Assembly (NCBI RefSeq): GCF_014206975.1
Contig: NZ_JACHOU010000003.1
Location: 186,001-250,000 of the forward strand
Length of the DNA stretch: 64,000 nucleotides
From: Aminobacter aganoensis
GTDB lineage: Bacteria > Pseudomonadota > Alphaproteobacteria > Rhizobiales > Rhizobiaceae
Direction: 5' to 3'
Part shown: positions 7,289-64,000 of the stretch, piece by piece
Position numbering within the stretch: the first letter of the stretch is position 1
Layout: each line of letters begins with the position of its first letter
Notes under the pieces: generated by a model
The model's input: only the letters and a program-made list of their open reading frames with translations
Told to the model about the DNA's origin: nothing
Databases searched by the model: none
Program-made: the position numbers and the translations under genes

Positions 7289-7309
7289 TCCGGGCGACCC
7301 GCACAGCTG

Positions 7310-7741: not shown

Positions 7742-7879
7742 GTGCCTACACGCCGGATCCCTGTTGTCTTTCAACCGGGGTGCCAACGACCCTGGCTGCA
7801 ATAGGTTGCAATCTGGTTGCAGGATTCTGGCGCAGCGGCGGTTTGTCGCCCGCCTGTCTGTCGGGCGACAAGGGGTCGA

Positions 7880-48138: not shown

Positions 48139-48156
48139 TAAGTAAGAAATTTTTTC
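48139..48156. promoter_or_regulatory. Shared island palindrome, copy upstream of acyl-CoA ligase
   Basis: TAAGTAAGAAATTTTTTC lies 55 bp before the ligase GTG. The left half-site TAAGT and AAGTAA core match the other copies; the right half is degenerate, so this is the weakest site. Confidence 0.45.
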
Positions 48157-48370
48157 AATCGGTGGAGTGGCATCCTCGGTGCCATACCTCGAGCTGTGTG
48201 GGTCCTGTTCGCACGTTTCCGTCAAATTGATGAGAAAATTCAAACGCGCAGCGCCTTCAGGCGCAATTCCGTAGGGGTTGTCGGAGGTGTTTTCGCGACC
48301 TTCCAGAGGGCCATTCGCTGCACCGGAAATCCCGCCTCCACACGCAGCAGGCGATTGACACAATTTTTTG

Positions 48371-48388
48371 TAAGTGTTTTATTACTTA
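48371..48388. promoter_or_regulatory. Shared island palindrome, copy upstream of first binding-protein gene
   Basis: TAAGTGTTTTATTACTTA (read on the opposite strand TAAGTAATAAAACACTTA) is a TAAGT-N8-ACTTA inverted repeat, 25 bp before the ATG at 48413. It is one of five matching sites in the island. Confidence 0.65.
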
Positions 48389-48412
48389 GCGAATGCAGGG
48401 AGGAGAAACCGC

Positions 48413-49567
48413 ATGGCTACACTGAAAAGATTGGCGCTTGCCGCCTCTATGTTGGCGTTGTCGGGCATGGGTGCGTTTGCCGACACGATCAAGATCGGCA
48501 TCAACCAGCCGCTCACCGGCTCGGTTGCTGCGTCCGGTACATTCATTACCGATGGCGCGAAGCTCGCCGCTCAGGCGGTCAACGAAAAGGGCGGCGTACT
48601 CGGTGGCAAGCAGATCGAGTTGGTCATCGAGGACAACAAGAGCAATCCGAGCGAAGCCGCCGCCGCCGCCGAGAAGCTGATCTCGCGCGACGAGGTGGTG
48701 GCGATGATGGGGGCCTGGGGCTCGACCTTCACGCTCGCCGTCATGCCCAAGCTTGAGGAATACGGCGTGCCCATGGTGGTCGAGACTGCGTCCTCGTCCA
48801 AGGTCACGTCAGCCGGAAACCCATGGGTGTTCCGCATCGCGCCGACCTCCGAAATGGAAGCCAAAGCGTTCGGGCGGCTGGTGCCGAAGTTTGAGGTCAA
48901 GAAGGCCGATTTCCTCGTCGTCAACAACGACTGGGGTCGCGGCGCCGCCGATGAGTTCGGCAAGATGCTGAAGGCCCAGGGCGTCTCTGTCGGCCTGGTC
49001 GAGACCATGGACCCGGCGGCGCAGGACGTCTCGGCGCAGCTCGCCAAGATCAAGGCCTCCGATGCCGACACACTGTTCGTCACCACTGGCTTCGAACAGC
49101 TTAGCCTCGTGTTCAAGCAGGCAAAGGCGCTAGGCATCGATCGCCGCACCATCACCACCGGCGGTTCGCAGTTTCCAGACCGGCTTGCCGAGCAACTGGG
49201 CGGTGCGGCCGACAACAGCTACCACATTCTGTTCTTCGCGCCGTGGTTCCCGGAGGCCGCCGCCAACCCTGACGTCGCTGGCCAGTACATCGACATGTGG
49301 AACAAGAGTGGCTTCGACAAGTCCGGCCTCTCCGACGGTTTCCGCGGCTTCGATGCCGTGACGACTATCGCCGCGGCCATCGACAAGGCCGGCAGCGCCG
49401 ACCCGAAGGCCATCCGCGATGCGCTGTGGGCGGTGGACGTGAAGGGTGTGAACGGCAACATCAAGTTCGATAAGGTGGGGGTCGAGGGTAGCGAAAGCGG
49501 CCAGAGCTCGCCCAACGTCTATGTCATCGAGATCAAGGACGGCAAGCTGGCGCTGCCGCAGATCTGA
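48413..49567 (+). CDS. ABC transporter substrate-binding protein (LivJ/K-like), first copy
   Basis: This 384-residue periplasmic binding protein of the Leu/Ile/Val type has a signal peptide cut after AFA (residue 23), then DTIKIGINQPLTGSVAASGTFITDGAKLAAQAVNEKGG and VAMMGAWGSTFTLAVMPKLEEYGVPMVVETASSSK. It is highly similar to the second copy at 61175-62335, so one membrane unit may serve two receptors. Ligand unknown; family members also bind urea, amides and aromatic acids. AGGAG precedes the ATG. Confidence 0.9.
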   Translation: MATLKRLALAASMLALSGMGAFADTIKIGINQPLTGSVAASGTFITDGAKLAAQAVNEKGGVLGGKQIELVIEDNKSNPSEAAAAAEKLISRDEVVAMMGAWGSTFTLAVMPKLEEYGVPMVVETASSSKVTSAGNPWVFRIAPTSEMEAKAFGRLVPKFEVKKADFLVVNNDWGRGAADEFGKMLKAQGVSVGLVETMDPAAQDVSAQLAKIKASDADTLFVTTGFEQLSLVFKQAKALGIDRRTITTGGSQFPDRLAEQLGGAADNSYHILFFAPWFPEAAANPDVAGQYIDMWNKSGFDKSGLSDGFRGFDAVTTIAAAIDKAGSADPKAIRDALWAVDVKGVNGNIKFDKVGVEGSESGQSSPNVYVIEIKDGKLALPQI

Positions 49568-49642
49568 CGCCCTGCCTCGAACCGGGTTGATGCGCCGTCT
49601 CCGCGTTGCTTGTGCGACGAGGCGGCGCTCATCCTCCCACGA

Positions 49643-49683
49643 GCATGATTCCAGAAGGCGCTGCCTTCGGAGAGGGATCATGC
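49643..49683. repeat. Nested palindrome between binding-protein and livH genes
   Basis: GCATGAT...ATCATGC encloses GAAGGC-GCT-GCCTTC, giving a nested hairpin in the 201-bp gap. It resembles the rhizobial element at 8541-8585. In an mRNA it could stabilise the upstream message and lower livHMGF expression relative to the binding protein. Confidence 0.55.
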
Positions 49684-49768
49684 GCAACCAGAACAGAGCG
49701 GAATGATCGGATCGATCCGTTCCTGATCGAACTCCCGCTCCAGACTTTCACCAGAGGAAGCAGGCAGC

Positions 49769-50641
49769 TTGGACCAGTTGTTGCAGCATCTGTTGAACGC
49801 GTTGATCCTGGGCTCAACCTATGCCCTGCTCGGTATCGGCCTGACGTTCATCTTCGGCATCATGCGCGTCGTGAATTTCGCGCATGGCGAACTCTACACC
49901 TTCGGCGCCTACATGGTTTACCTGTTCTCGGTACTGCTCGGCGTCAATTTCCTGCTCTCCATCGTCATTGCCATCGTGCTTGGCATAATGCTCGGCGCCC
50001 TGCTTGAATGGGTGCTGCTAAGCCGGCTGCGCGGTGCCGACATCGACACCACCATGCTGGTGATGATCGGAGCCTGGATCATCATGCAGAATGCCGAGCA
50101 GCTGATCTGGTCGGGCGTTGCCAAATCGATCCCGATGCCGTTCCCCGAGGAGCCGCTGTCGGTCGGTGGCGTGTCGGTGGCGTGGTCACGCGTGTTCGTC
50201 TTCGCCGTCGCCATCCTGCTGATCGTCGGCTCGCAGACGCTGATCCAGCGCACCCGCCTCGGCAAGGCGATGCGCGCCACGTTCCAGGATCGCGACACAG
50301 CCTCGCTGATGGGCATCAACATCAACATGATCTACCTCGCCACCTTCGCGCTCGGCTCAGGCCTTGCCGCGGCGGCCGGCGCGCTGCTCGGCCCGATCTT
50401 CATCGTCATGCCGACCATGGGCAATCTTGCCGTGGTCAAGGCGTTCGCCATCGTCATCCTGGGCGGGCTGGGCAACATGAAGGGTGCCGCACTTGGCGGC
50501 TTCGTGCTGGCGCTGGTCGAGGAGTTAGGCGCTGGCTACATCTCGTCCGGCTACCGCGACGCGATGGGCTTCCTGCTCATCATCCTCGTACTCATGGTCA
50601 AGCCGACAGGTCTCTTTGCCAGGACGGAGCGCATCGGATGA
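49769..50641 (+). CDS. livH: Branched-chain amino acid-type ABC permease LivH
   Basis: This 290-residue permease has about eight membrane helices and LivH phrases: LILGSTYALLGIGLTFIFGIMRVVNFAHGELYTFGAY, TRLGKAMRATFQDRDTASLMGIN, VKAFAIVILGGLGNMKGAALGG. The start is TTG at 49769, after an AGAGGAAG site; no upstream ATG is in frame. The stop overlaps livM as ATGA. Confidence 0.92.
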   Translation: MDQLLQHLLNALILGSTYALLGIGLTFIFGIMRVVNFAHGELYTFGAYMVYLFSVLLGVNFLLSIVIAIVLGIMLGALLEWVLLSRLRGADIDTTMLVMIGAWIIMQNAEQLIWSGVAKSIPMPFPEEPLSVGGVSVAWSRVFVFAVAILLIVGSQTLIQRTRLGKAMRATFQDRDTASLMGININMIYLATFALGSGLAAAAGALLGPIFIVMPTMGNLAVVKAFAIVILGGLGNMKGAALGGFVLALVEELGAGYISSGYRDAMGFLLIILVLMVKPTGLFARTERIG

Positions 50642-51690
50642 ACACCTTGGCGAAATGGCTCATCGTGGCCTTCCTGGTGACTGTGCCGCTGTGGCTCGGC
50701 AACCAGTACCAATATCACGTGCTCATCATGATGGGCATCTTCACCATCGGGGCGATGAGCCTCAACCTGCTGCTCGGCTACACCGGCCAGCTCAGCCTCG
50801 GCCATGTCGCCTTCTTCGGCATCGGCGCCTACACCAGCTCGCTGGTCTCCCTGGGCTTCGACCTGCAGCTGACGGACAGCTACACCTTCGTGGTCGAGCC
50901 GAAGCCTGTGTGGTTTGCCTTCTTCTGCGCACTGATCGTTTCTGGGCTCTGTGGCTGGTTCGTCGGCAAGCTGTCGTTCCGGGTGCGCGGTGCCTATTTC
51001 GTCATCGTCACCATCAGTTTCGCCGAGGTTGTGCGGTTGGTGGCGCTGAATTGGGTCGACCTCACCGAAGGCCCGATGGCGCTCAACAACATTCCGCCGC
51101 TCGCCTCCGGCGTGCCGTGGATGGAAGCCGGTGCGCTTTCTCGCCGGGTCGCCAACTACTACATGGTGCTGGCCGTAGGCCTCGTAGCCTTCCTCATCAT
51201 CCAGCGGTTGGTGCAGTCGAGGGTCGGCCGCGCCATGATTGCGCTGCGTGAGAATGAGTCGCTGGCGAAGTCGGTCGGCGTCGACGTCACCCGCTACCTC
51301 GTTCTGGCGGCCATCACCTCGGCGGCGATCGCCGGGGCGGCTGGCGCGCTTTACGCACACTATGTCCGTATCGTCGATCCGGACGTGTTCTTGTTTATTT
51401 ACACGGTGACGATGGTGATCATGGTGATTTCCGGCGGCAAGGGCACGCTTGCAGGGCCGCTGGTCGGCGGTCTCATCTTTGGCATCCTGCCGGAGTTGAC
51501 GCGCGGTCACATGCTGCCGGAGGTGCAGTGGATTGTCTACGGTGCACTGATGATCCTGATCGTGTTCTTCCTGCCGCAAGGCATCGTTCCGGCGGTGCAG
51601 CGCGGATGGGCAACTTGGCAGAAGCGGCGCGACCAATCTGCAAGGGACACGTCGGCCAGCAACGGACGGCGGCAGGAGGTGGCGCGATGA
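50638..51690 (+). CDS. livM: Branched-chain amino acid-type ABC permease LivM
   Basis: This 350-residue permease has about ten membrane helices with LivM signatures: MSLNLLLGYTGQLSLGHVAFFGIGAYTSSL, SFRVRGAYFVIVTISFAEVVRLVALNW, RVGRAMIALRENESLAKSVGVDVTRYL, and VISGGKGTLAGPLVGGLI. A hydrophilic tail follows (about 325-350). It is coupled to both neighbours by ATGA overlaps. Confidence 0.93.
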   Translation: MNTLAKWLIVAFLVTVPLWLGNQYQYHVLIMMGIFTIGAMSLNLLLGYTGQLSLGHVAFFGIGAYTSSLVSLGFDLQLTDSYTFVVEPKPVWFAFFCALIVSGLCGWFVGKLSFRVRGAYFVIVTISFAEVVRLVALNWVDLTEGPMALNNIPPLASGVPWMEAGALSRRVANYYMVLAVGLVAFLIIQRLVQSRVGRAMIALRENESLAKSVGVDVTRYLVLAAITSAAIAGAAGALYAHYVRIVDPDVFLFIYTVTMVIMVISGGKGTLAGPLVGGLIFGILPELTRGHMLPEVQWIVYGALMILIVFFLPQGIVPAVQRGWATWQKRRDQSARDTSASNGRRQEVAR

Positions 51691-52493
51691 CCTTACACAT
51701 GACGACGCCTGCGACGACGCGCCAGACGGTGCTCACCGTCGACAATCTCGCAGTGCATTTCGGCGGGCTGGTGGCGATCTCCGACGCCAGCTTCAAGGTC
51801 GACGAAGGCGAAGTGGTCAGCCTGATCGGCCCGAACGGCGCCGGCAAGACCACCGCCTTCAACGTGATCTCCGGCTTTCTCGCCGCCACCAAGGGCGTCG
51901 TGGCTTACAAGGGCAGGAGGTTGAACGGGCTGAAGCCGCACCAGATCGCCGATGCCGGCCTGGTGCGCACGTTCCAGAAGACCAGCGTCTTTGGCAACGA
52001 TACCGTGATCGACAACATCATGATCGGCCTGCACAGGCGCGGCGACGCCTCGATCTGGCAGACACTGCTGCTGACACCGAAGGTGCGCCGCCAGGAACAG
52101 GCGTTGCGCGAGGCGGCGGCGGAAATCCTCGACTTCGTCGGCCTCGGTCACCGCTCGAACGAGCTGGCGGGCGCACTCGCTTATGGCGAACAGCGGCTCC
52201 TTGAAGTGGCGGTGGCGCTGGCGGCTAAGCCATCGCTGCTTCTGCTGGACGAGCCGGCCTGCGGCATGAACCCCACCGAAGCGTTGAATTTCCGCAACCT
52301 GCTCGGCGAAATCGGCAGGAAAAAGATCACCGTGCTGCTTGTCGAGCACAACATGCGCATGGTCATGGGCGTATCGGACCGCGTGGTGGTGCTCAACCAT
52401 GGCCGGATCATCGCGGACGGTCCGCCGACGGAAATACAGCAGAATCCAGAAGTCATCCGCGCTTATCTCGGACACGGGCCGAAACATGCTTGA
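51687..52493 (+). CDS. livG: ABC transporter ATP-binding protein LivG
   Basis: This 268-residue ATPase has Walker A GPNGAGKTT, the LivG-type TFQKTSVF region, the signature LAYGEQRLLEVAVALA, Walker B LLLLDEPACGMNP and the switch His in VEHNMRMVM. A short N-terminal extension precedes TVLTVDNLAVHFGG. It overlaps livM (ATGA) and livF (8 bp). Confidence 0.93.
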   Translation: MTLHMTTPATTRQTVLTVDNLAVHFGGLVAISDASFKVDEGEVVSLIGPNGAGKTTAFNVISGFLAATKGVVAYKGRRLNGLKPHQIADAGLVRTFQKTSVFGNDTVIDNIMIGLHRRGDASIWQTLLLTPKVRRQEQALREAAAEILDFVGLGHRSNELAGALAYGEQRLLEVAVALAAKPSLLLLDEPACGMNPTEALNFRNLLGEIGRKKITVLLVEHNMRMVMGVSDRVVVLNHGRIIADGPPTEIQQNPEVIRAYLGHGPKHA

Positions 52494-53196
52494 AGTAGAC
52501 AACATCGAATGCCGCTACGGCAAGGTTGACGTGCTGCGGAAGGTTTCGCTTAGCGTTGGCAAGGGCGAGTTCGTGGCTCTGATCGGCGCCAACGGCGCCG
52601 GTAAAAGCACAACCCTGAAGGCGATTTCCGGCCTGCTGCCGCCGGTCGGAGGCCGTATCACCTTCGAAGGCGAGGACATCACCAGGGCGTCGGCACGGCG
52701 AATACTGGAAATGGGCATCGCCCATTGCCCGGAGGGCAGGCGGGTGTTCCCCTACATGACCGTCCAGGAGAATCTGGAGATGGGCTGTTACCGCCGTCGC
52801 GACTGGAAGCATATGAGCGACGACATGGACGCGGTGTTCGACCGCTTCCCGGTGCTCGGCGAACGGCGCGCCCAGGCGGCCGGCACGCTGTCGGGCGGCG
52901 AGCAGCAGTTGCTGGCGATCGGTCGGGCACTGATGTCGCGGCCGAAGCTGGTGCTGTTCGATGAACCGTCGCTGGGGCTTGCGCCCAACAACGTGCAGAA
53001 GACCTTCGAATACATCATGGAAATCAACCGGCAGGGCACGACCGTGCTGATGGTCGAGCAGAACGCCTACGCCGCGCTCGAGATGTGCGACCGCTCGTAT
53101 TTGCTGGAATCCGGCCATGTCTCCCTCGAAGGCAGGGGCGACGACATGATCCACAATCCGCACGTGCAGCAGGCTTACCTCGGCATGGAAGTCTGA
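52486..53196 (+). CDS. livF: ABC transporter ATP-binding protein LivF
   Basis: This 236-residue ATPase has Walker A GANGAGKST, the LivF phrase GIAHCPEGRRVFPYMTVQENLEMG, the signature LSGGEQQLLAIGRALM, Walker B LVLFDEPSLGLAP and VEQNAYAALEMCDR in place of the His-containing switch, as normal for LivF. It is the last gene of the transporter operon; a hairpin follows at 53203. Confidence 0.94.
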   Translation: MLEVDNIECRYGKVDVLRKVSLSVGKGEFVALIGANGAGKSTTLKAISGLLPPVGGRITFEGEDITRASARRILEMGIAHCPEGRRVFPYMTVQENLEMGCYRRRDWKHMSDDMDAVFDRFPVLGERRAQAAGTLSGGEQQLLAIGRALMSRPKLVLFDEPSLGLAPNNVQKTFEYIMEINRQGTTVLMVEQNAYAALEMCDRSYLLESGHVSLEGRGDDMIHNPHVQQAYLGMEV

Positions 53197-53202
53197 CCTT
53201 TC

Positions 53203-53224
53203 GGAGGGCGCGATAGCGCTCTCC
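53203..53224 (+). terminator. Hairpin after livF
   Basis: GGAGGGCGC-GATA-GCGCTCTCC forms a 9-bp stem with one mismatch, 6 bp after the livF stop. No clear T-run follows, so termination may be partial. Confidence 0.4.
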
Positions 53225-53281
53225 ACATCCTCCCTCTCTTTGGGCCAGATAACGAAAACCGGGTTGACTTCGAGTGCTAAG

Positions 53282-53299
53282 TAAGTAAGTTATTACTTA
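53282..53299. promoter_or_regulatory. Shared island palindrome, best copy, upstream of DUF1445 gene
   Basis: TAAGTAAGTTATTACTTA is TAAGT-N8-ACTTA, 30 bp before the ATG at 53329. Aligned with the other four sites the shared part is TAAGTAA plus a right-hand TT-rich half, with AAGTAA invariant in all five. Confidence 0.7.
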
Positions 53300-53328
53300 T
53301 TACGAACGACGAAAGCGAGGCTAAAGAA

Positions 53329-54159
53329 ATGACGATCGTGACGAAGGTTCAGCAGCAGCCGGAAGTGTCCAAGGCGGAGCTCGAGGGGCTTCACCCCAGG
53401 GAGCTTCGCAAGATCGTCCGCGAAGGCCGCTGGACCGGCGGAACCGAGGGCCTGGCTCGCGGTTACGCGCAGGCCAACCTGATCATCCTGCCGAAGGAGG
53501 TTGCGCTCGACTTCCTCATCTTCTGCCAGCGCAACCCGAAGCCGTGCCCCATCGTCGAGATCACAGATCCCGGGAGCCCGATGATCACGCAGGTCGCCAA
53601 TGCCGACCTTCGGACAGACCTGCCGCGCTACAGCGTGTACAAGGAAGGCAAGCTGGTCGACCAGCCAAGCGACATCACGTCCTATTGGCGCGACGACCTG
53701 GTCGGGTTCCTGATCGGCTGCAGCTATTCGTTCGAGGAGGCGCTGCTCAATGCGGGCATTCCGCTGCGCCATCAGGAAGAGAACAAGATCGTATCGGTCT
53801 ACACGACCAATGTGCCTTGCGTTCCCGCTGGTCGTTTTGCCGGGCCGATGGTGGTGAGCATGCGTCCAGTCAAGCGCGACCAGCTGGTGCGTGCCGTGCA
53901 GGTCACCTCGCGGTTCCCTGCCACCCACGGGGCGCCAGTCCATATCGGCGATCCGTCGTTGATCGGCGTCGACCTTGAGAAGACCGATTTCGACACAGGC
54001 GTGTTTGAGCTCGCCGAGGACGACGTTCCGGTTTTCTGGGGCTGCGGCGGCACTCCGCAGGCTGTCGCGCTGGCGTCCAAGATCGACTTCATGATCACCC
54101 ACAAGGTCGGCCACCTGTTCGTCACGGACAAGTTGTCCGAGGCGATCGCCGCGATCTGA
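53329..54159 (+). CDS. DUF1445 protein (D-glutamate cyclase / putative hydro-lyase family)
   Basis: This 276-residue protein has the family phrases LARGYAQANLIILPKEVALDFLIFCQRNPKPCPIVEIT, RFAGPMVVSMRPV, THGAPVHIGDP and VFWGCGGTPQAVA. A member has been assigned D-glutamate cyclase (D-glutamate to 5-oxo-D-proline); most are annotated as hydro-lyases. Next to a hydantoinase/oxoprolinase-type gene, a lactam-related step is plausible. It starts a new transcript downstream of the shared palindrome. Confidence 0.83.
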   Translation: MTIVTKVQQQPEVSKAELEGLHPRELRKIVREGRWTGGTEGLARGYAQANLIILPKEVALDFLIFCQRNPKPCPIVEITDPGSPMITQVANADLRTDLPRYSVYKEGKLVDQPSDITSYWRDDLVGFLIGCSYSFEEALLNAGIPLRHQEENKIVSVYTTNVPCVPAGRFAGPMVVSMRPVKRDQLVRAVQVTSRFPATHGAPVHIGDPSLIGVDLEKTDFDTGVFELAEDDVPVFWGCGGTPQAVALASKIDFMITHKVGHLFVTDKLSEAIAAI

Positions 54160-54198
54160 CGGGGTCGCCGACTATCCTTTTTTGTTCTGGAGGAATAC

Positions 54199-55236
54199 GT
54201 GAAAGCAGCTCTTTTCCACGAATATGGCGGGCCTGAAGTGCTCAAATACGAGGACGTGGATCCGCTTCCTGTCGGTCGCAGCGACGTCCTGATCAAGGTG
54301 CGCGCCACCTCGGTGAACTGGTTCGACATCATCGGCCGCAAGGGCGACTACCGTCCCAACGCGCGTTTTCCGCACATCCCCGGTGGTGACATCGCCGGTG
54401 AGGTGGCCGAGATCGGCTCGGAGGTCACCAACGTCAAGGTCGGCGATCCGGTCGTCGTCTACGCCACCGTCGGCTGCGGCCATTGCGAATCCTGCCGCCG
54501 CGGCGAACCCAATGTGTGCCTGAATTACAAGTATTACGGTTCGGCACTGTGGGGCGGCTACGCCCAATACGCCACCGTGCGCTCGCAGAACGTGCTGCCG
54601 CTCTACAAGGGCCTCGACTTCGCCGAATGTGCAGCCACCAACATCACCTTCCTCACTGCCTGGCACAAGTTGGCGCGCGCCAACATCCGCGCCGGCGAAG
54701 ACATCCTGATCCACGCCGTCGGTTCTGGCATCGGCCTTGCCGCGCTCCAGATTGCCAAGCTGCACGGCCTGCGTGTGTTCGGCACCGCCAGCTCGGACGA
54801 GAAATGCGAGAAAGGCCTGGAGCTCGGCGCCGACTACATGATCAACTACAAGAAGCAGAATTTCCGCGAGGAGATCCGCAGGCTCACCGGCAAGCGCGGC
54901 GTTGACGTGGTGTTCGAGCACATCGGCGCCGACGTCTGGGAAGACAGCGTCATGAGCCTGACGCGCTTCGGCCGCCTCGTCACTTGTGGCGCCTCGTCAG
55001 GCTACCGGGTGAGCATGAACGCCGCCCATATCTGGCACAAGCAGCTCTCCATCATCGGCTCCAACCACGGCACGATGAACGAACTGGCGACCATCGTGAA
55101 GCTGCTTGAGGCCAAGAAGCTGCGGCCGGTCATCGGCGCCAAGCTGCCGCTCAAGGATGCCGCCGAGGCTCACCGGCTGGCCGAAGGCCGCAGCATCTTC
55201 GGCAAGATCGTGCTCGAGCCAGAGCATCTGAACTGA
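54199..55236 (+). CDS. MDR-superfamily dehydrogenase/reductase with structural zinc lobe
   Basis: This 345-residue medium-chain reductase has the structural-zinc Cys set in GCGHCESCRRGEPNVC, and the cofactor-loop phrase IHAVGSGIGLAALQIAKLHG. The catalytic-zinc ligands are absent: SVNWFDIIGRKG and IPGGDIAGE stand where Cys and His-Glu would be, as in quinone reductases. So it is probably a zinc-independent reductase of an enone or quinone with a zinc-stabilised lobe. The start is GTG at 54199 with GGAGG just upstream. Confidence 0.87.
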   Translation: MKAALFHEYGGPEVLKYEDVDPLPVGRSDVLIKVRATSVNWFDIIGRKGDYRPNARFPHIPGGDIAGEVAEIGSEVTNVKVGDPVVVYATVGCGHCESCRRGEPNVCLNYKYYGSALWGGYAQYATVRSQNVLPLYKGLDFAECAATNITFLTAWHKLARANIRAGEDILIHAVGSGIGLAALQIAKLHGLRVFGTASSDEKCEKGLELGADYMINYKKQNFREEIRRLTGKRGVDVVFEHIGADVWEDSVMSLTRFGRLVTCGASSGYRVSMNAAHIWHKQLSIIGSNHGTMNELATIVKLLEAKKLRPVIGAKLPLKDAAEAHRLAEGRSIFGKIVLEPEHLN

Positions 55237-55374
55237 CACAGCGCCGCCAAGCCGGAAAAGTTGCAGGCTTTTCGGGTCATGCGGCCGAACAAGGAGACAG
55301 AGCGGGATGCCGATTTGACCTGATCGCGTTCCGCTCTAGTGTGACGGCCGGCCCGGGACCGGTGGGGAGGAAAT

Positions 55375-56595
55375 ATGTCCGACAATCGTATCGTCAAGGT
55401 GAAGGGCCGGTTCGACGCCGAGGTCTTCCTGAATCCCGGCAAGGTCGACGCCGGCAAGCGCCAGACTTGCTATGGGCAGGCGCAGGCCGAAGAGGCGCGC
55501 GCCCGGATCTCGTCCTGGGCAGACTATGCAGTGACGCCGCTCAGAGCTCTGCCCGGCGCGGCTGCCGAGCTCGACCTCGGTGGGCTGTGGTGCAAGGATG
55601 AGAGCCGGCGTCTAGGCCTCGCCAGCTTCAAGGCGCTCGGCGCCGTCTACGCCGCCGTCAGCGAGGTCTCGGCTCTGTTGGAGAAGCGGCTTGGCCATCC
55701 CGTGTCCGACCGCGATTTGCTCGACGGCAAGTACCGCGAGGCGCTTGTCGACAATTTCCTGATCTGCTGCACCGATGGCAACCACGGCTTCTCGGTCGCC
55801 CACGCCGCGCGCCGAATGGGGATGCGGGCGATAATCTACATCCCGAGCGGTGTCAGTGCCGGCCGCGAGCAGGCATTGCGGCGCGAGGGCGCCGAGGTGG
55901 TGAGAATCGACGGCATCTATGACGAGGCCTATGCTGCGGTCGAGCGGGTCGCGCATGTCGACCCGGGGGCGCTGCTCATCTCCGATTCCGCCACGCCCTA
56001 TTACCAGGACATCCCGGTCCGTTGCATGGCCGGCTATTCAGTAATGGCGCATGAGATTGTCGAGCAGCTAGGCGGCGAGCTGCCGACCCACGTTATGTTG
56101 CCAGCCGGTTGCGGGGGCATGGCGGCGGCTATGTTGTCGGCCTTCCACCACCTGCTCGGCGCGCGCGCGCCGCAGGCGATCATCGTCGAGCCGGTCACTG
56201 CCGACTGCGTCTTCGCCAGCGCACTCGCCGGCGCGCCGGTGGTCGTTGAAGGCGACCTCGAAACCATCATGGGCGGCCTGTCCTGTGCGGCGGTCTCGCA
56301 TGTTGCGTGGCCGACCATCGACACCGGCACGACGGCGTTCCTGCGCATGAACGACCAGGCTGCGGTGGAGGGGATGCGGCTTTTCGCCAACCCCCGCGGG
56401 CGCGATCCGCGCGTCGTCGCCGGCGAAACCGGTGCTGCCGGCCTCGCCGCAGTAATTGCCATCTGCGCCGACCCGGAGGCGCGCGCGCTCGTCGGCCTCG
56501 ACGACAAGGCAAAGGTGCTGGTCATCAATTGCGAGGGCGCCACCGATCCTGCCGCCTTCCAGCAACTCACGGGGCAACGGCCCGAGGCAGCCTGA
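55375..56595 (+). CDS. dpaL: Diaminopropionate ammonia-lyase
   Basis: This 406-residue fold-type II PLP enzyme has the Schiff-base Lys near residue 86 in LASFKALGAVYA, the CCTDGNHGFSVAHAARR loop, and the glycine-rich AGCGGMAAAML phosphate site; the phrase TPLRALP and the long insert fit DpaL over threonine dehydratase. It splits 2,3-diaminopropionate to pyruvate and two ammonia. Its stop overlaps the molybdenum hydroxylase start (TGATG), so the enzymes probably act in one pathway. Confidence 0.85.
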   Translation: MSDNRIVKVKGRFDAEVFLNPGKVDAGKRQTCYGQAQAEEARARISSWADYAVTPLRALPGAAAELDLGGLWCKDESRRLGLASFKALGAVYAAVSEVSALLEKRLGHPVSDRDLLDGKYREALVDNFLICCTDGNHGFSVAHAARRMGMRAIIYIPSGVSAGREQALRREGAEVVRIDGIYDEAYAAVERVAHVDPGALLISDSATPYYQDIPVRCMAGYSVMAHEIVEQLGGELPTHVMLPAGCGGMAAAMLSAFHHLLGARAPQAIIVEPVTADCVFASALAGAPVVVEGDLETIMGGLSCAAVSHVAWPTIDTGTTAFLRMNDQAAVEGMRLFANPRGRDPRVVAGETGAAGLAAVIAICADPEARALVGLDDKAKVLVINCEGATDPAAFQQLTGQRPEAA

Positions 56596-58967
56596 TGGCG
56601 GCAGGGGAGCAAAAGGCCGGCAAGGGCATCGGCGTCCGCCTCCCGCGCAAGGAGGACGAGCGCTTCATGCGCGGTCGCGGCAGCTATGTCGGCGACATCA
56701 AGATGCCGGGCCTCACCGACGTCGCTTTTTTGCGCAGCCCGCTGGCGCATGGCCGCATCGTCTCGGTCACCGCGCCTGATGAGCTCGCCGGCCGCTTCTT
56801 CACCGCCGCCGACATTGCTGCTTCGGTCAAGCCGATCCGCGCCGTCTCCGGCCTGCCGGGTTTCAAGCCGTCCAGTCAGCCGGCGCTTGCCGACGGCAAG
56901 GTGCGGTTCACCGGCGAGTTGGTCGCCATGTGTCTGGGCCGCACGCGTGCCGAGGCCGAGGACGCGGTCGCGCAGGTGGTGGCCGAGATCGAGCCACTGC
57001 CGCCGCTCGCCGATTTCGCCGTGGCCGAGCAGCCGGACGCCATCTGCGTTCACGAGGAGTGGAGCGACAACATCTATCTCGAGACCAGGATCGAGAAGGG
57101 TGATCGGTCGCGGATCGACGGTGCGGCGATCGAGGTCGAGCGCGAAATCCGTCTCAGCCGTCAGTGCATGGTGCCGCTCGAAGGCAAGGGAACCATCGCT
57201 TGGTGGGATACCCGGCTCGACCAGCTCGTGGTCTACACCTCGACCCAGTTGCCGCACATGATGCGTACCGGGCTTGCCGAATGTCTCGGGCTGGAGGAGC
57301 GGCAGGTGCATGTCGTTGCGCCCGATGTCGGCGGCGGCTTCGGCTTCAAATGCGTGCTGCAACCGGAGGAGCTTTGCGTCGCCTGGCTAGCGCTGACGCG
57401 AAAGAAGCCATTCCGCTGGATCGAGGATCGCCGCGAGCATCTCGTAGCCGCTGCGAACACCCGCGAGCACCACTATCGCATCAAGGCCTTCGCCGATGCC
57501 GAAGGCCGGCTGCTCGGCATCGAGGCAGACGTTGCCGTCGATGTCGGCGCCTATTCGGTGTGGCCGTTCTCTGCCTGCCTGGAATCGGCGCAGATCGCCA
57601 GCATCCTGCCCGGCCCCTACCAGATGCCGTTTTATGCCTGCCGTACCCGCTCGGTCGCCACCAACAAGCCGCCCTTCATGCCGTATCGCGGCGTCGCCCG
57701 CACCGGCGTCTGCTTCGCGCTGGAGCTGATGATTGACGCCATCGCTCGGCAAGCCGGGCTGGAGCCCGCCGACGTGCGGCTGAAGAACCTGGTGCTGCCC
57801 GAGCAGATGCCATTCACCAACATCACCGGAAAGCTGTTCGACAGCGGGGACTATCCCGAGAGCGTGCGCCGCGCCGTCGAGACGATCGACCTGGCATCGT
57901 TTCGCGCCAGGCAACGCGAGGGAAGCGACGATGGCCGGCTGCTCGGCATTGGCTTTGCCACATATTGCGAGCAGGCCGCGCACGGCACCACCGTCTACGC
58001 CGCCTGGGGCATACCGATGGTGCCGGGTTTCGAACAGGCGACGGCGCGGGTCACACCCGACGGCGGGCTGGAGCTGCGCATCGGCGTGCATTCGCACGGG
58101 CAGGGCATGGAGACCTCGATGGCGCAGGTCGCCAACCAGGTTCTAGGCATCGACACCGACCGTATCAATGTCGTGCACGGCGACACGGCGCTGACGCCGT
58201 ATTCGACCGGCACCTGGGGCTCGCGCTCGATGGTGATGGCCGGCGGCGCGGTGTCGCGCGCCTGCGAGATCATCCGCGAGCGGGCGCTGGCGATCGGCGC
58301 GCATCTCTTGCAGACGGGCAAGGACGAGGTCGAGCTGGTCGGCGGTCGCATCCAGGGGCAGGGCGGCAGTGTCGGTTTTGCCGACATCGCCCAGGCCTGG
58401 TACAAGTCGCCGGAAACGCTGCCGGCCGACGTCGCACCGGAAGGGCTCGAGGTTACGGCGGGCTACAAGCCCATGGTTGATAGCGGCACCTTCAGCTATG
58501 CCACCCATGCGGCCGTCGTCGCCGTCGATCCGGATTTCGGTTCGGTCGAGATCCTCGACTACGTCGTGGTCGAGGATGGCGGCACGCTGGTCAACCCCCT
58601 TATCGTCGACGGCCAGATCATCGGCGGCGTGGCGCAAGGTATCGGCACCGCGCTCTACGAGGAGTCGCCCTACAGCGCCGACGGCCAGCCGCTCGCCTCG
58701 ACCTTCGTCGACTACATCATTCCAGGTCCTTGCGAGGTGCCAGACATCCGTATCGTCCACATGGAAACGCCGTCGCCGTTCACAGCGCACGGTATCAAGG
58801 GCGTGGGCGAGGGCGGGGCCATCGCCCCGCCGGCGGCGATCGCCAACGCCGTCAACGATGCGCTGCGGCCGCTCGGCGCCGAGGTGGCGATGACGCCGGT
58901 GACGCCGCACCGGCTGCTCGCGGCGATTGCCGCCGGCAGGAACGGCAGGCAGCCGGTCCAGTCATGA
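56595..58967 (+). CDS. Molybdenum hydroxylase large subunit (xanthine dehydrogenase family)
   Basis: This 790-residue molybdopterin-binding subunit has the VGGGFGFKCVLQPEE region, the loop PYRGVARTGVCFALE, and the catalytic Glu in KGVGEGGAIAPPAAIANAV near 737. The active-site loop lacks the Cys of CO dehydrogenase (CoxL AYRCSFR), so it is not a true CO oxidiser. With the next two genes it forms the L-M-S trimer of a hydroxylase for an N-heterocycle or aldehyde. Caffeine dehydrogenase has a similar trimer layout. Confidence 0.9.
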   Translation: MAAGEQKAGKGIGVRLPRKEDERFMRGRGSYVGDIKMPGLTDVAFLRSPLAHGRIVSVTAPDELAGRFFTAADIAASVKPIRAVSGLPGFKPSSQPALADGKVRFTGELVAMCLGRTRAEAEDAVAQVVAEIEPLPPLADFAVAEQPDAICVHEEWSDNIYLETRIEKGDRSRIDGAAIEVEREIRLSRQCMVPLEGKGTIAWWDTRLDQLVVYTSTQLPHMMRTGLAECLGLEERQVHVVAPDVGGGFGFKCVLQPEELCVAWLALTRKKPFRWIEDRREHLVAAANTREHHYRIKAFADAEGRLLGIEADVAVDVGAYSVWPFSACLESAQIASILPGPYQMPFYACRTRSVATNKPPFMPYRGVARTGVCFALELMIDAIARQAGLEPADVRLKNLVLPEQMPFTNITGKLFDSGDYPESVRRAVETIDLASFRARQREGSDDGRLLGIGFATYCEQAAHGTTVYAAWGIPMVPGFEQATARVTPDGGLELRIGVHSHGQGMETSMAQVANQVLGIDTDRINVVHGDTALTPYSTGTWGSRSMVMAGGAVSRACEIIRERALAIGAHLLQTGKDEVELVGGRIQGQGGSVGFADIAQAWYKSPETLPADVAPEGLEVTAGYKPMVDSGTFSYATHAAVVAVDPDFGSVEILDYVVVEDGGTLVNPLIVDGQIIGGVAQGIGTALYEESPYSADGQPLASTFVDYIIPGPCEVPDIRIVHMETPSPFTAHGIKGVGEGGAIAPPAAIANAVNDALRPLGAEVAMTPVTPHRLLAAIAAGRNGRQPVQS

Positions 58968-59782
58968 AGCCAAGTGCTTACAGATATGCCCGCCCGTCGA
59001 GCGTGGCCGAAGCGGTCCGGCTGCTGGCCGATTCCGATGGCGGCGGCAAGGTGATGGCCGGCGGCCAGTCGCTCGGGCCAATGCTCAACCTGCGCCTCGC
59101 CCAGCCCGAACTTGTCGTCGACATTACCGGTATTGGCGAGCTCGCCAGCGTGCGTGAGGACAAGGACGGCATCGTCTACGGCGCCTGCGTCACCCACGCT
59201 GCGGTGGAAGACAACCGCGTACCCGACGCCGCCAATGGTTTCCTGGCAAGGGTGGCAGCCGGCATTGCCTATCGTGCGGTGCGCAACCGCGGCACCATGG
59301 GCGGCAGCCTGGCGCATGCAGATCCTTCCGCCGACTGGATGACCACGCTGACCGCCGTCGACGCCGAGATGCTGATCGCCGGCGCCACCGGCGAGCGCCG
59401 TGTTGCCCTTGCCGAGTTCATGACGGCGCCGTTCTCCGTGGCGCTCGACGAGGCGGAGTTCATCGTCGGCATCCGCATCCGCCGCCATTCGCCGGCCGCT
59501 CGCTTCGGCTATTTCAAGTTCTGCCGCAAGCGCGGCGAGTTCGCCGAGGCGATGGCGGCGATCGTCGTCGACCCCGCCGCCGGCGTCAGCCGCGCGGTGA
59601 TCGGCGCTACCGATTCCCGGCCGATCGTCCTGCCCGACATCTCCGCCTACCTGCCGCTTTCTCCGGAACGGCTGGAAGCGGCGAAGGCCATGGTCGAGGG
59701 GCTGGGCATCGCCGGCGAGCCGATCAAGGATGCGATGCACGCAAATGCCTTCGCGCGAGCACTGCAACAGGTGAAGCCATGA
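58964..59782 (+). CDS. Molybdenum hydroxylase FAD-binding subunit
   Basis: This 272-residue protein has the FAD motifs KVMAGGQSLGPMLNLRLAQPELVVDI and RNRGTMGGSLAHADPSADW, typical of the CoxM/XdhB-type medium subunit. It relays electrons between the [2Fe-2S] centres and an acceptor. It overlaps both neighbours by ATGA. Confidence 0.92.
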   Translation: MKPSAYRYARPSSVAEAVRLLADSDGGGKVMAGGQSLGPMLNLRLAQPELVVDITGIGELASVREDKDGIVYGACVTHAAVEDNRVPDAANGFLARVAAGIAYRAVRNRGTMGGSLAHADPSADWMTTLTAVDAEMLIAGATGERRVALAEFMTAPFSVALDEAEFIVGIRIRRHSPAARFGYFKFCRKRGEFAEAMAAIVVDPAAGVSRAVIGATDSRPIVLPDISAYLPLSPERLEAAKAMVEGLGIAGEPIKDAMHANAFARALQQVKP

Positions 59783-60987
59783 GCGAACTGTCTCTGACCG
59801 TCAATGGCGAGAAGGTGACCGTTGCTGTCGAGCCGCGCACCAGCCTCGCCGACCTCGTACGCGAAAACCTCAACCTCACTGGTACGCATCTCGGCTGCGA
59901 GCAGGGCGTGTGCGGCGCCTGCACAATCCTGGTCGATGGTGTGCCGGTGCGCTCCTGCATCGGCAATGCAACCGCCTGCGACGGCGCCAGCGTTCGCACC
60001 ATAGAGGATTTCGACGCCGACCCGTTGATGACCGAGTTGCGCGCCGCCTTCAACGCGCATCACGCTCTCCAATGCGGGTTTTGCACGCCGGGCATGCTTG
60101 TCATGGCGCGCGACATCGTCTTGAGGCTTGGCGAAGCCGACGAGCAGCGCATCCGCATCGAACTCGCCGGCAATCTCTGTCGTTGCACCGGCTATTCCGG
60201 CATCGTCAAGGCGATCCGTTGGGTCATCGTGGCCCGCCAGGGCGCCAGGGGCGAGCTTGAGCAGCGGCCCGCATTGCCACTCGGGCCGGCCGGGTCGGGC
60301 CATGCAAAGACCGGCACGGATGTTAGCGGTGCGACAAAGGCGACTGCTTCATCCTTGCGTCCGGACGCTGAATTGGCGGCCCGTAAACCCGCGCCTGCGC
60401 CGCTTGGCGCCAGCGGCAAGAAGGCATCGGCGGTCAGGCAGAGTTTTTTGCTCGACGCGCCGCTGCCGGTCGTCTGGCAACGTTTTGGCGAGGTGCCGGC
60501 CATGGTGCGCTGCATCCCCGGCGCCAGCCTCGTCTCTGAGGCAGCCGACGGAACCTACGACATCAAGATGCGCATCAAGATGGGGCCGATCGGCGCGGAA
60601 TTCGCTGGAACGGCGAGCCAACGACGCGACGACGCGATGATGGCTGGCGTGATCCACGGTGCAGGCCGCGACACCAAAAGCGCCACACTCGCCGAAGGCG
60701 AACTGAACTATAGGCTCACGGCTGAAGGTGAGGGGACCCGCGTTGACATCGAGGTCAGTTACCTGCTCTCGGGGGCGCTGGCGCAGTTCGCACGTGCCGG
60801 CATCGTCACGCATTTCATCGGCGCCATCACCGCACAATTCGCCGCCAATCTGGGCCGCTCATTGTCACCGGAGGGCGCGGTAGGCCCCATCGAGGACGCC
60901 GGCGAACTGCGTGTCGCGGGCAGCCTTGGGGTCGCCCTGAAAGCCTGGCTCAGCGAGCTTTTTCGCAATCCGTTCCGGCGCGGATGA
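59779..60987 (+). CDS. Molybdenum hydroxylase [2Fe-2S] subunit fused to a CoxG-like domain
   Basis: This 402-residue protein has a plant-type [2Fe-2S] domain (1-75, GCEQGVCGACTILVDG...SC) and an alpha-helical [2Fe-2S] domain (78-150, QCGFCTPGM...CRCTGY), which together are the usual full-length small subunit of about 160 residues. After an Ala/Pro-rich linker (about 150-215) comes a CoxG-like SRPBCC domain (about 218-395, RQSFLLDAPLPVVWQRFGEVPAMVRCIPGASL...). CoxG usually anchors CO dehydrogenase to the membrane, so the fusion may tether this enzyme to the membrane. Confidence 0.9.
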   Translation: MSELSLTVNGEKVTVAVEPRTSLADLVRENLNLTGTHLGCEQGVCGACTILVDGVPVRSCIGNATACDGASVRTIEDFDADPLMTELRAAFNAHHALQCGFCTPGMLVMARDIVLRLGEADEQRIRIELAGNLCRCTGYSGIVKAIRWVIVARQGARGELEQRPALPLGPAGSGHAKTGTDVSGATKATASSLRPDAELAARKPAPAPLGASGKKASAVRQSFLLDAPLPVVWQRFGEVPAMVRCIPGASLVSEAADGTYDIKMRIKMGPIGAEFAGTASQRRDDAMMAGVIHGAGRDTKSATLAEGELNYRLTAEGEGTRVDIEVSYLLSGALAQFARAGIVTHFIGAITAQFAANLGRSLSPEGAVGPIEDAGELRVAGSLGVALKAWLSELFRNPFRRG

Positions 60988-61012
60988 TCAGACCCTTCTC
61001 TTCCATGATGTG

Positions 61013-61047
61013 AAAGCCAGCGGCACTCGTGTGCGGCTGGCTCTTTT
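61013..61047 (+). terminator. Terminator after the molybdenum hydroxylase genes
   Basis: AGCCAGC (61015-61021) and GCTGGCT (61036-61042) form a stem with loop, followed by CTTTT. It ends the plus-strand operon before the convergent binding-protein gene. Confidence 0.6.
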
Positions 61048-61174
61048 AGCCATCTCCGGTCCGGACATGCTCGTCGGAATGGATCGGCAGCCAAGCCCCG
61101 AAGGGCATGGCTGACTGACCTTGAGCTCTTCGTGCCTGCCGTGATCGACGGTGCCGGACAGCGGGCAACGACGC

Positions 61175-62335
61175 CTATTGGGCTGCGAAGTCGGGCCGCA
61201 CCACCTTGCCGTCCTTTACCTGGACCACGAAGACGTTGGCGGTGTTCTGGCCGCTTTCGGCGCCTTCCGGCCCTTGCTTGTTGAAGTGGATGTTGCTGTT
61301 TACGCCCTTCACCTCGACCTCCCACAGCGCCTGGCGGATGGCGTCCGGCTCGGCCTTGCCGGCCTTTTCGATTGCTGCGGCAATGCTCAGGATGGCGTCG
61401 TAGCCGCGCTGGCCCTCGATGCGACCGGCAAAGACGAGACCTTTGCGCTCCCATGCTTCGGCGAAGAACTTCGCCACCTCCGGGTTGGGCGCCATGTCGG
61501 GAAACCAGGGGGCGAAAAGCACGGTGAAATAGGCGTTGTCGGCAGCGCTGCCGGCATGCTCGATTGCCTGGTCGGGTGTGGACGAGGTGGTGGTGGCGAT
61601 AATGCGCTGCGGCATCTTGAGCGCATGCGCCTGCTTGAACACCAGCGTGAGCTGCTCGATCTCGGTCGTCACCAGCAGCACGTCGGCGTCGGACGCCTTG
61701 ATCTTGGCGAGCTGCGCCGAAAGATCGACGGCGGCGGCATCCATCGTTTCGCGTAGTGTCGTCGGCACGCCACGCTTGTCCAGCATTGCCGAATACGCGT
61801 CGGTGTTGCTCTTGCCCCAATCGTTGTTGACCGCCAGGAACGCTGCCTTCTTCATCCCGAATTTTTCGACGAAAGGCGAGAAGGATTCTGCCAGCATGTC
61901 GCTGGTCGGTGCTGTACGGAAGATCCACTTGTTGCCTGAGTTGGTGACCTTGCCGGACGATGCCGTCTCCACCACCATGGGCACGCCGTATTCCTCGAGC
62001 TTAGGCATGACGGCGAGCGTCATCGTCGAGCCCCAGGCGCCCATCATAGCGCAGACCTCGTCGCGCATGATCAATTTCTCGGCGACCGCCGCAGCTTCAG
62101 TCGGATTGCCCTTGTTGTCCTCGATTATCAGCTCGATCTGCTTGCCGAGAAGGCCGCCCCTGGTGTTGATCTCCTCGACGGCGATGCGTGCGCCGTCGGT
62201 GACGTAGTTTCCGGACGCCGCCACTGGTCCGGTCAGCGGCTGGTTGACGCCGATCTTGATCGTGTCGGCGAAGGCCGCCGAGACCGACAAGGCGAGCGCC
62301 GCGACTGCGCCCACAATCATACCCTTTGCGTTCAT
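61175..62335 (-). CDS. ABC transporter substrate-binding protein (LivJ/K-like), second copy
   Basis: This 386-residue periplasmic protein has a signal peptide cut after AFA (residue 23) and is strongly similar along its length to the first copy at 48413-49567 (shared phrases DTIKIG, MMGAWGST, LAVMPKLEEYGVPMVVETASS, LAKIKASDAD). No permease genes sit beside it, so it probably feeds livHMGF with a second ligand. It is convergent with the hydroxylase operon and divergent from hyuB. Confidence 0.9.
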   Translation of the reverse strand: MNAKGMIVGAVAALALSVSAAFADTIKIGVNQPLTGPVAASGNYVTDGARIAVEEINTRGGLLGKQIELIIEDNKGNPTEAAAVAEKLIMRDEVCAMMGAWGSTMTLAVMPKLEEYGVPMVVETASSGKVTNSGNKWIFRTAPTSDMLAESFSPFVEKFGMKKAAFLAVNNDWGKSNTDAYSAMLDKRGVPTTLRETMDAAAVDLSAQLAKIKASDADVLLVTTEIEQLTLVFKQAHALKMPQRIIATTTSSTPDQAIEHAGSAADNAYFTVLFAPWFPDMAPNPEVAKFFAEAWERKGLVFAGRIEGQRGYDAILSIAAAIEKAGKAEPDAIRQALWEVEVKGVNSNIHFNKQGPEGAESGQNTANVFVVQVKDGKVVRPDFAAQ

Positions 62336-62490
62336 CAAGTTCCTCCCGTTGAAGATACCGAAGGAGACGTTCCGGAGCACAGAATGACGCGATGCCGCAA
62401 CTGCGCTTCCGCCGTTGCGACCGGTCGTTGCCGATGGGTTTTGCTTGCCTGTGGTTCTCCAGAACGGCTCTGTCGTCAGCCGATGCTGCA

Positions 62491-62508
62491 GAAGTAATTA
62501 AGTGCTTA
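62491..62508. promoter_or_regulatory. Shared island palindrome, copy upstream of second binding-protein gene
   Basis: GAAGTAATTAAGTGCTTA keeps the AAGTAA core and the 8-nt spacing (GAAGT-N8-GCTTA). It lies about 155 bp before the start at 62335 and on the other side faces hyuB. Confidence 0.5.
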
Positions 62509-62632
62509 CTAAGGTGCGCTGTCAAGCGGCGCGCGCCGGCGACGATTTATTTCGCCTGCCGAAAATTGCCGGCCCTGTCGGCGGGGAGAAGTCGCACAAA
62601 ATGACGGTCAAGGGCATTGACAGCCGCCGTTG

Positions 62633-62650
62633 TAAAAGAATACTTACTTA
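62633..62650. promoter_or_regulatory. Shared island palindrome, copy upstream of hyuB
   Basis: On the minus strand the site reads TAAGTAAGTATTCTTTTA; its left half and the preceding GC match the copy at 53282 closely. It lies 30 bp before the hyuB start. Confidence 0.6.
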
Positions 62651-62679: not shown

Positions 62680-64000
62680 ATGGCGGCAACAGCCATGGTT
62701 CGGGCCGAGGACAGCGGCTTTATCGAGTTCGAGTTGTTCAAGAACGAGCTCTTCTCGATCGCGGACGAGATGGCCGTCACCATCTGCCGCACGACATATT
62801 CAGGCGTCTTGCGCGACAACATGGATTTTTCCACCGGCATCGCCGATGCCGAGGGTCGCCTGGTGGCGCAGGGCTTAACCTTGCCGGTGCATCTGGGTTC
62901 TATCCGCACGGCGCTGCAGGCGGTGATGAAGAAGTTCGCCGGAAGCATCGAAGAAGGCGACGTGTTCGTCCTCAACGACCCGTTTGAAGGCGGCATGCAC
63001 CTGCCCGATATCTTTATTCTGAAGCCAGTGTTCGCGGCCGGAAAGCTGATCGCCTTCGCTGCGACCACTGCCCACCACGTTGATGTCGGGGGCCATGTGC
63101 CCGGCTCCAATTCGGTCAACTCGACCGAGATTTTCCAGGAAGGGCTGCGCATTCCGCCGCTCAAGCTGGTGGCTGCCGGCCAGCATGACGAGGCGCTGTG
63201 GACGTTGATCCGCAGCAATGTCCGGCTGCCCGTCCAGCTCTGCGGCGACCTGCGCGCGCAACTCGCCGCTTGCGAGATCGCGCAACGCAAGATCCTGGCG
63301 TTGGTCAACCGCTACGGCATCGATGCCTCGACCGTTCATATGCGCGAGATCATCGACTATACCGAACGCCTTGCGAGGGCGGCGGTGAAGGAACTGCCGG
63401 ACGGGGAGTTCTCGTTCGAGGACTGGATCGACGACGACGGCATGGACATCGGTCAGCCGATCCGGCTGTTCGTGACGGTGCGCAAGCAGGGCGAAGCGGT
63501 CGAATTCGACTGGACCGGCAGCGCCCCGCAGGTGAAGGGCGCCATCAACTGCACGCTCTCGGTGACCGAGGCCGCTTCCTACACCGCACTGCGCTCGATC
63601 CTGCCGGGCGGAATCCCCAACAATGACGGCATATTCCGCATCATCAAGACAGTCGCGCCGGAAGGCACGATCGCCAACGTCGCCATGCCCGGCGCCTGTG
63701 CCGCCCGTGCGCTGACGGGCTTCCGCATGGTCGACTGCGCCTTCGGCGCGCTGGCGCGCATGGTGCCCGATCGGGTGTTCGCCGCTTCCGACGGCGGCAA
63801 TGTCGGCGTCACCATCGCGGGCTTCGCGCCATCGGGAGAACGTTTCGTCTATGTCGATTTTTCCTGCGGAACCTGGGGCGGCCGTCCCTGGGCCGACGGT
63901 ATCGACGGCATTTCCAACATCTTCGTCAACATGGCCTCGCAGTCAGTGGAGCAGATCGAATCCGAGCATCCGGTCGAGATTCTCGCCTACGAATTCGCGC
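62680..64000 (+). CDS. hyuB: Hydantoinase B/oxoprolinase family protein (3' end outside window)
   Basis: The visible 440 residues start MAATAMVRAEDSGFIEFELFKNELFSIADEMAVTICRTTYSGVLRDNMDFSTGIADAEGRLVAQG and continue GDVFVLNDPFEGGMHLPDIFILKPVF, the HyuB signature. These enzymes with HyuA open hydantoins, 5-oxoproline or related lactams using ATP, or are part of acetone/acetophenone carboxylases. GGAGG lies nine bases upstream. HyuA is expected to the right. The shared palindrome sits just upstream. Confidence 0.9.
   Translation, partial: MAATAMVRAEDSGFIEFELFKNELFSIADEMAVTICRTTYSGVLRDNMDFSTGIADAEGRLVAQGLTLPVHLGSIRTALQAVMKKFAGSIEEGDVFVLNDPFEGGMHLPDIFILKPVFAAGKLIAFAATTAHHVDVGGHVPGSNSVNSTEIFQEGLRIPPLKLVAAGQHDEALWTLIRSNVRLPVQLCGDLRAQLAACEIAQRKILALVNRYGIDASTVHMREIIDYTERLARAAVKELPDGEFSFEDWIDDDGMDIGQPIRLFVTVRKQGEAVEFDWTGSAPQVKGAINCTLSVTEAASYTALRSILPGGIPNNDGIFRIIKTVAPEGTIANVAMPGACAARALTGFRMVDCAFGALARMVPDRVFAASDGGNVGVTIAGFAPSGERFVYVDFSCGTWGGRPWADGIDGISNIFVNMASQSVEQIESEHPVEILAYEFA

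Follow-up and report, generated by a model that had tools for sequence, protein, structure and literature searches.

The DNA analyzed here, referred to as the window, is a 64,000-nucleotide stretch of the genome of Aminobacter aganoensis (contig NZ_JACHOU010000003.1, positions 186,001 to 250,000), and its right-hand part carries a catabolic island in which five promoters share one 18-bp palindromic site. The island encodes a TetR-family protein, a coenzyme A (CoA) ligase, two LIV-type binding proteins with one importer, and several enzymes, among them a molybdenum hydroxylase and the HyuB protein, whose gene runs past the window end (Table 1). Downstream of hyuB come hyuA and two CoA-transferase-like genes, all named by sequence resemblance only. 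We examined whether these sites could be the operators of the TetR protein and bring the island under a single control.

Table 1. Coordinates of the operators, the genes of the island and two look-alike loci (window positions unless a locus is named).
Feature	Position	Strand	Remarks
Operator upstream of ligase-tetR	48139..48156	-	TAAGTAAGAAATTTTTTC on +; one strong half-site; no clear -35
Operator, binding protein 1-livHMGF promoter	48371..48388	+	10 bp after TTGACA (48355-48360)
Best operator, DUF1445-adh-lyase-coxLMS promoter	53282..53299	+	0 mismatches; 12 bp after TTGACT; second register 53278
Operator, binding protein 2 promoter	62491..62508	-	11 bp after TTGACA on - strand; second register 62495
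Operator, hyuB-hyuA-CoA-transferase promoter	62633..62650	+	10 bp after TTGACA; identical in all three genomes
TetR repressor, proposed reader	45615..46382	-	TetR_N and TetR_C_29; recognition helix TANANMRMLYHYF
Acyl-CoA synthetase (AMP-binding)	46435..48084	-	First gene of ligase-tetR unit; probable GTG start
LIV-type periplasmic binding protein 1	48413..49567	+	Family search
livH, livM, livG, livF	49769..53196	+	Named by sequence and position only; order kept in both relatives
DUF1445 / D-glutamate cyclase family (putative hydro-lyase)	53329..54159	+	Family search
Zinc-binding alcohol dehydrogenase family	54199..55236	+	Family search
Diaminopropionate ammonia-lyase family pyridoxal phosphate (PLP) enzyme	55375..56595	+	Family search
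Molybdenum hydroxylase: coxL, coxM, coxS-coxG fusion	56595..60987	+	Family search
LIV-type periplasmic binding protein 2	61175..62335	-	Family search
hyuB	62680..64000	+	Continues past window end; named from resemblance only
DUF4747 look-alike loci	L016 (home genome C28:8001-27000): 7198-8070 and 9361; L101: 10001 and 11795-12667		

Five palindromic sites and their place in the promoters

A preliminary description of this DNA had reported five gap-free 18-bp sites sharing an invariant AAGTAA in chosen orientations, and both statements hold when checked against the letters of the window. A search with TAAGTANNNNNNTACTTA at up to three mismatches returned eight matches in the window against 0.76 expected, a number reached in none of 100 shuffles; the eight are the five sites, three of which also match in a second register shifted by 4 bp. 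A stricter 14-base pattern, also at up to three mismatches, was found at seven places in the window and at a mean of 0.0 over 15 Markov rounds. The sites at 48139 and 62633 each have one good and one poor half, and that at 62491 has two possible registers. Two-register operators (TAAGTAAGTAAG...), with the registers 4 bp apart, were seen at 53278-53299, 62491-62512 and 62629-62650 of the window and at 10541-10562 of a further locus (L072), an arrangement that might permit sliding or the binding of two dimers.

The placement of the sites upstream of genes, earlier given as 25-155 bp, was likewise borne out by measured distances of 24-155 nt to the gene starts: 24 nt for binding protein 1, 29 nt for both DUF1445 and hyuB, 155 nt for binding protein 2, and 54 nt for the ligase if the GTG at 48084 is its start. 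Read in the direction of transcription, four of the five window sites start 10-12 bp past TTGACA or TTGACT (p about 2e-5 for four of five, at the rate found at AT-rich 18-mers of the window). Over the three genomes that carry the cluster, TTGAC or ATGACA was found 10-13 bp off in 13 of 16 sites, and at 5 bp for the ligase site of Pseudaminobacter soli. At the promoters with such a box the site covers the spacer and the -10 region, a classical location for binding of a TetR-type repressor. The ligase promoter is a weak member of the set, with a single good half-site and no clear -35.

Conservation in relatives and distribution in the home genome

A scan of a genome collection with the TetR protein recovered two close orthologues, in Pseudaminobacter arsenicus CB3 (80% identity) and P. 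soli HC19 (75%). Both genomes carry the cluster with its blocks rearranged, including the ligase, tetR, two LIV-type binding proteins, livHMGF, DUF1445, the dehydrogenase, the diaminopropionate-lyase-like enzyme, coxLMS, hyuBA and two CoA-transferase-like genes. The search of orthologous clusters proposed in the preliminary description showed the site at five of five promoters in each of these two genomes, with drift at two promoters. The orthologous 18-mers were 94-100% identical in 10 of 15 pairwise comparisons, next to flanks of 12-76% ungapped identity (mostly 20-65%); the drifted sites were those of binding protein 2 (67-78% in the relatives) and of the P. soli ligase (50%), the P. arsenicus ligase site being 94% identical. 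Genome-wide at up to one mismatch, P. soli has four places, all in the cluster, and P. arsenicus four, three of them in the cluster; for the remaining one, C11:11703, no connection to the regulon was found.

The tetR gene of the window, like that of P. arsenicus, lies downstream of the ligase gene, with which it presumably shares a promoter. The P. soli tetR is oriented away from the ligase and must therefore have a separate promoter. A sixth site (one mismatch) is located there; the operator has moved along with the repressor gene. Near full-length matches in both relatives suggest that a further trait was retained, namely the CoxG-like domain (PF06240) fused to the [2Fe-2S] subunit of the molybdenum hydroxylase (window 59779-60987).

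The distribution of the island is patchy, since nine other genomes of the genus contain no TetR above 37% identity at E<=1e-40. Among 394 sampled genomes of the same family, TetR matches at E<=1e-52 were present in seven, and beyond the home genome matches above 45% identity occurred in only two (80% and 71%), at positions that match the Pseudaminobacter contigs. Plasmid records gave 541 with a TetR match, every one below 60% identity; a single Rhizobium plasmid locus was inspected for gene context only. At the left of the island, remnants of an insertion sequence (window about 44850-45582, with a transposase DDE domain in the open reading frame (ORF) 45103-45582) stop about 30 bp from the tetR end and may mark the island boundary.

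We then considered the motif across the home genome (5.76 Mb, 52 contigs). A 12-base pattern at up to two mismatches was found at 14 places, five of which, representing three sites, are in the island; three places remained at up to one mismatch, two in the island and one at C28:17361. The motif is thus concentrated in the island but is not enriched over the genome as a whole, because the reversed control of the same pattern has 42 places. Similarly, TAAGTAAG occurs eight times, four of them in the island, and its reversed control 36 times. The genome scan was also run with a cross-validated matrix, a sequence-only model built from 11 sites of P. arsenicus and P. soli and from zero window sites. 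At E<=10 it gave four rows, corresponding to 53282 (both strands), 48371 and 62633, and zero rows outside the island in the whole home genome, though the sites at 48139 and 62491 were missed.

The outlying place C28:17361, between ORFs and 1.3 kb from a DUF4747 gene, was set aside as an unrelated element and not counted in the regulon; a similar CG-centred palindrome at L101, in another genome, also has a DUF4747 gene nearby. In these two genomes the DUF4747 genes lie 1.3-1.8 kb from the look-alike palindromes (TAAGTAAACGCTGACTTA, TAAGTAAGCGTTTACTTA), which are possibly part of a separate mobile or phage element.

The TetR protein and its recognition helix

The protein matched PF00440 (TetR_N) at 50 bits (cut-off 24) and, in its ligand-binding C-terminal part, PF17938 (TetR_C_29) at 118.5 bits (cut-off 26.2). 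As is usual in the TetR family, a palindromic operator occurs at its own and at neighbouring promoters, judged here on sequence evidence only. All 32 first-look candidates in the home genome were scored, and E<=1e-40 was reached by TetR itself alone. The earlier claim that it is the only regulator of the island holds for the shared cluster, where no gap between the genes matched in P. arsenicus exceeds about 340 bp.

Control by one TetR repressor through several operators is already known from other systems. The protein shares the TetR fold with RutR, its best NCBIfam match (51.3 bits) and also one of its PDB matches. However, this score is far under the RutR equivalog cut-off of 368, and that of the second match, Bacillus-type FadR (49.1 bits), is below its cut-off of 200. 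RutR is the TetR repressor of pyrimidine utilisation, an example of local control of nitrogen-compound breakdown, and its operator has TTGACCA arms, different from those of the window. Bacillus-type FadR represses fatty acid breakdown through an operator of 7-bp TGAATGA arms around a 4-bp centre, a layout like that of the window operator but with different arms (TAAGTAA in the window). The best solved relative by sequence is 3npi, a TetR family regulatory protein in the PDB (E=1.6e-20 over residues 37-243), but its recognition helix SGMSKRMIHYHF is unlike TANANMRMLYHYF of the window TetR. For the TetR-family protein CasR (Rv1776c), which regulates CRISPR-associated genes, the footprinted stretch contains TAAGTAAG, and half of the palindrome sufficed for binding (PMC9953421). 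The 20-bp CasR site given there, AGTAAGGCTTGTGTCTCACT, is another palindrome than the window operator (PMC9953421). In the open-licence PMC literature searched, we found no description of the operator, of its tie to a TetR subclass or of the regulon.

The exact motif, searched as TAAGTAANNNNTTACTTA in the sample of 394 genomes, occurred at 23 places in 19 genomes, compared with five places in five genomes for the reversed control. Without the three islands, 20 places at 17 loci remain. A homologous TetR (phmmer E 4e-45 or lower) is encoded within about 6 kb at nine of the 17 loci and lies directly beside the site in six; at the other three (L104, L105 and L111), two exact sites adjoin a molybdenum-hydroxylase-like gene, and at L104 TRAP transporter and 2-oxoacid oxidoreductase domains were identified.

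To compare recognition helices, TetR homologues were chosen by protein score alone. The ten N-x-R proteins exclude the three orthologues and the nine rows found by motif (L100, L104, L105, L107, L111-L115), and for two of the ten (L185 and L186) the site was already known from the upstream survey described below; the comparison set consisted of nine N-K-R proteins and one N-K-N. The motif was present at up to one mismatch within about 10 kb in five of the ten N-x-R loci (Markov expectation 0.0) and in 0/10 of the others (Fisher p=0.016). Some of these nominally 20-kb stretches were shortened by contig ends, the shortest being 9.8 kb in the N-x-R set and 7.4 kb in the comparison set. Proteins with C-N-x-R had the motif in 5/5 cases against 0/15 for the rest (p=6e-5), a split made after the data had been seen.

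The upstream survey took in 88 distinct homologues and the 400 bp that precede their DNA-binding domains. Homologues whose upstream DNA was identical were counted once, repeat loci of the same genomes were left out, and one N-K-R row had only 56 bp upstream. At up to two mismatches the motif was found for 9/17 N-x-R, 3/6 N-x-Q, 1/46 N-K-R and 0/19 other proteins. Six of the nine N-x-R positives had been found via the motif, and the nine motif-found rows among the 17 carry no information on frequency. At three mismatches the counts were 6/6 for N-x-Q and 3/46 for N-K-R, and three control patterns of equal composition matched 0/88 upstream regions even at this level. All six N-x-Q homologues (L018-L023, with an N-V-Q-M helix) have an upstream operator variant, TAAGYRAATTTTTACATA or near it. 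A few N-K-R loci were incidentally seen to have AACC-GGTT-like arms. The genomes for the homologue searches and for the exact-motif search were samples drawn from larger groups, and the three homologue searches scored no more than 9, 6 and 8 candidates in each genome, so the counts are lower bounds; one homologue search listed more than 150 places, of which 30 came with loci (one being the window's own) and 40 more were fetched.

At two distant positives, L185 and L186 (tetR 43-45% identical), tetR and a LIV-type binding protein gene diverge from each other with the site in between, and livHMGF relatives come after the binding protein; L185 also encodes relatives of DUF1445 (47%), HyuA (36%) and HyuB (30%). 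Amidase genes adjoin the positives L178 and L180, and a TRAP binding protein adjoins L180 and L181; the site of L181 is inside the first bases of an ORF's longest reading, and L183 has a weaker site (two mismatches) about 150 bp beyond an AllH-domain gene. From these neighbours, nitrogen-containing amides, ureides or rings are suggested as the inducer class. For the window itself, our guess from the enzyme families (CoA ligase, molybdenum hydroxylase, HyuAB-type ATP-dependent ring-opening enzyme, PLP lyase and CoA-transferases) is that the set would fit a pathway in which a nitrogen heteroaromatic carboxylate is activated, hydroxylated and opened.

A broader reading, which we hold at about even chances, is that a TetR subclass with a [C/A]-N-x-R-[M/L] helix keeps TAAGTAA-N4-TTACTTA on varied importer-plus-enzyme modules in six or more families of the class (f1, f31, f38, f131, f133 and f144). 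Several of these modules would contain amidase, hydantoinase-type, molybdenum hydroxylase or AllH-like genes, and the operator would be switched by one or two helix residues, as in the N-x-Q variant and the N-K-R arms.

Proposed regulation of the island and its alternatives

We consider it very probable that TetR is an autoregulated local repressor reading one operator at the five promoters. A TetR dimer would bind TAAGTAA-N4-TTACTTA upstream of ligase-tetR, binding protein 1-livHMGF, DUF1445-adh-lyase-coxLMS, binding protein 2 and hyuBA-CoA-transferase. Given that the site fills the spacer and -10 region after the TTGAC box at four promoters, bound TetR should there exclude RNA polymerase. 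The importer, both binding proteins and the enzymes would be switched on jointly once a small molecule releases TetR. This inducer is probably the substrate taken up by the importer or a compound derived from it, for instance its CoA thioester, and may be a nitrogen-containing ring or amide. We observed directly the sites, their conservation, their promoter placement and the link of the motif to a TetR subclass, and the pathway is probably switched on as one unit. The suggestion in the preliminary description that TetR reads the sites gains support from the site at tetR itself in P. soli, from exact motifs beside homologous tetR genes in other clusters and from the way in which presence of the motif at 0-1 mismatch goes with the recognition helix. 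Its proposal of one regulon agrees with the concentration of operators in the island and their conservation upstream of orthologues.

Several observations weigh against this reading. The ligase sites of the window (48139) and of P. arsenicus are without a clear -35 box, the sites at 48139 and 62491 were not recovered by the relatives' matrix at E<=10, and the full cluster is known in only three related genomes. Eight of the 17 exact-motif loci (L101, L102, L103, L106, L108, L109, L110 and L116) lack a homologous TetR nearby; the nine positive loci are non-independent, with four from one genus and neighbourhoods of about two kinds, and the co-occurrence counts stand without a formal control. 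The helix contrast rests on the better sites, because at up to two mismatches the counts are 6/10 for N-x-R and 3/10 for the others, which also weighs against the subclass reading. Furthermore, the C-N-x-R subset was recognised post hoc, and A/S/V-N-x-R proteins outside the orthologues had the motif in 0/5 cases at 0-1 mismatch, yet the window protein itself is A-N-M-R.

TetR could act as an activator or a dual regulator at some sites, as activation is known for some TetR-family proteins and the ligase site differs in geometry, with no clear -35 before it. We regard this as very unlikely, since at four of the five window promoters the site falls within the core promoter and polymerase would be blocked by a protein bound there. 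It is likewise very unlikely that a different regulator, encoded elsewhere, reads the sites and TetR is a passenger, even if the eight loci without a nearby homologous TetR indicate that other proteins or elements can use the palindrome. A candidate would be the LysR-like gene (named from sequence) about 4.7 kb past the window edge, but it has no match (E<=1e-20, >40% identity) in the examined stretches of the two other clusters and was rejected as the reader. In addition, the site accompanies the detached tetR in P. soli, and motif presence at 0-1 mismatch tracks the TetR recognition helix.

The overlap of the site with the -10 region at most promoters could also mean that the shared sequence is a mere AT-rich core promoter and not a regulator site. 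This explanation appears hardly credible and was rejected: what is conserved is a palindrome of 18 bp, both arms of which contain strong positions, the matrix rows at E<=10 are confined to the island whereas promoters occur everywhere, and the equal-composition controls were empty upstream of the 88 tetR homologues.

Local repression by TetR would tie a 20-kb uncharacterised catabolic island into one switch, with two LIV-type binding proteins, one importer, a CoA ligase, a molybdenum hydroxylase, a hydantoinase-type enzyme and a PLP lyase under its control. A single switch would make the substrate findable, as the inducer of the five promoters would be the substrate or derived from it. Related clusters can be sought by means of the operator, and the correspondence of helix residues with operator provides a testable rule for TetR recognition; if the subclass reading is true, that rule would serve as a practical recognition code in one section of this very large family of repressors.

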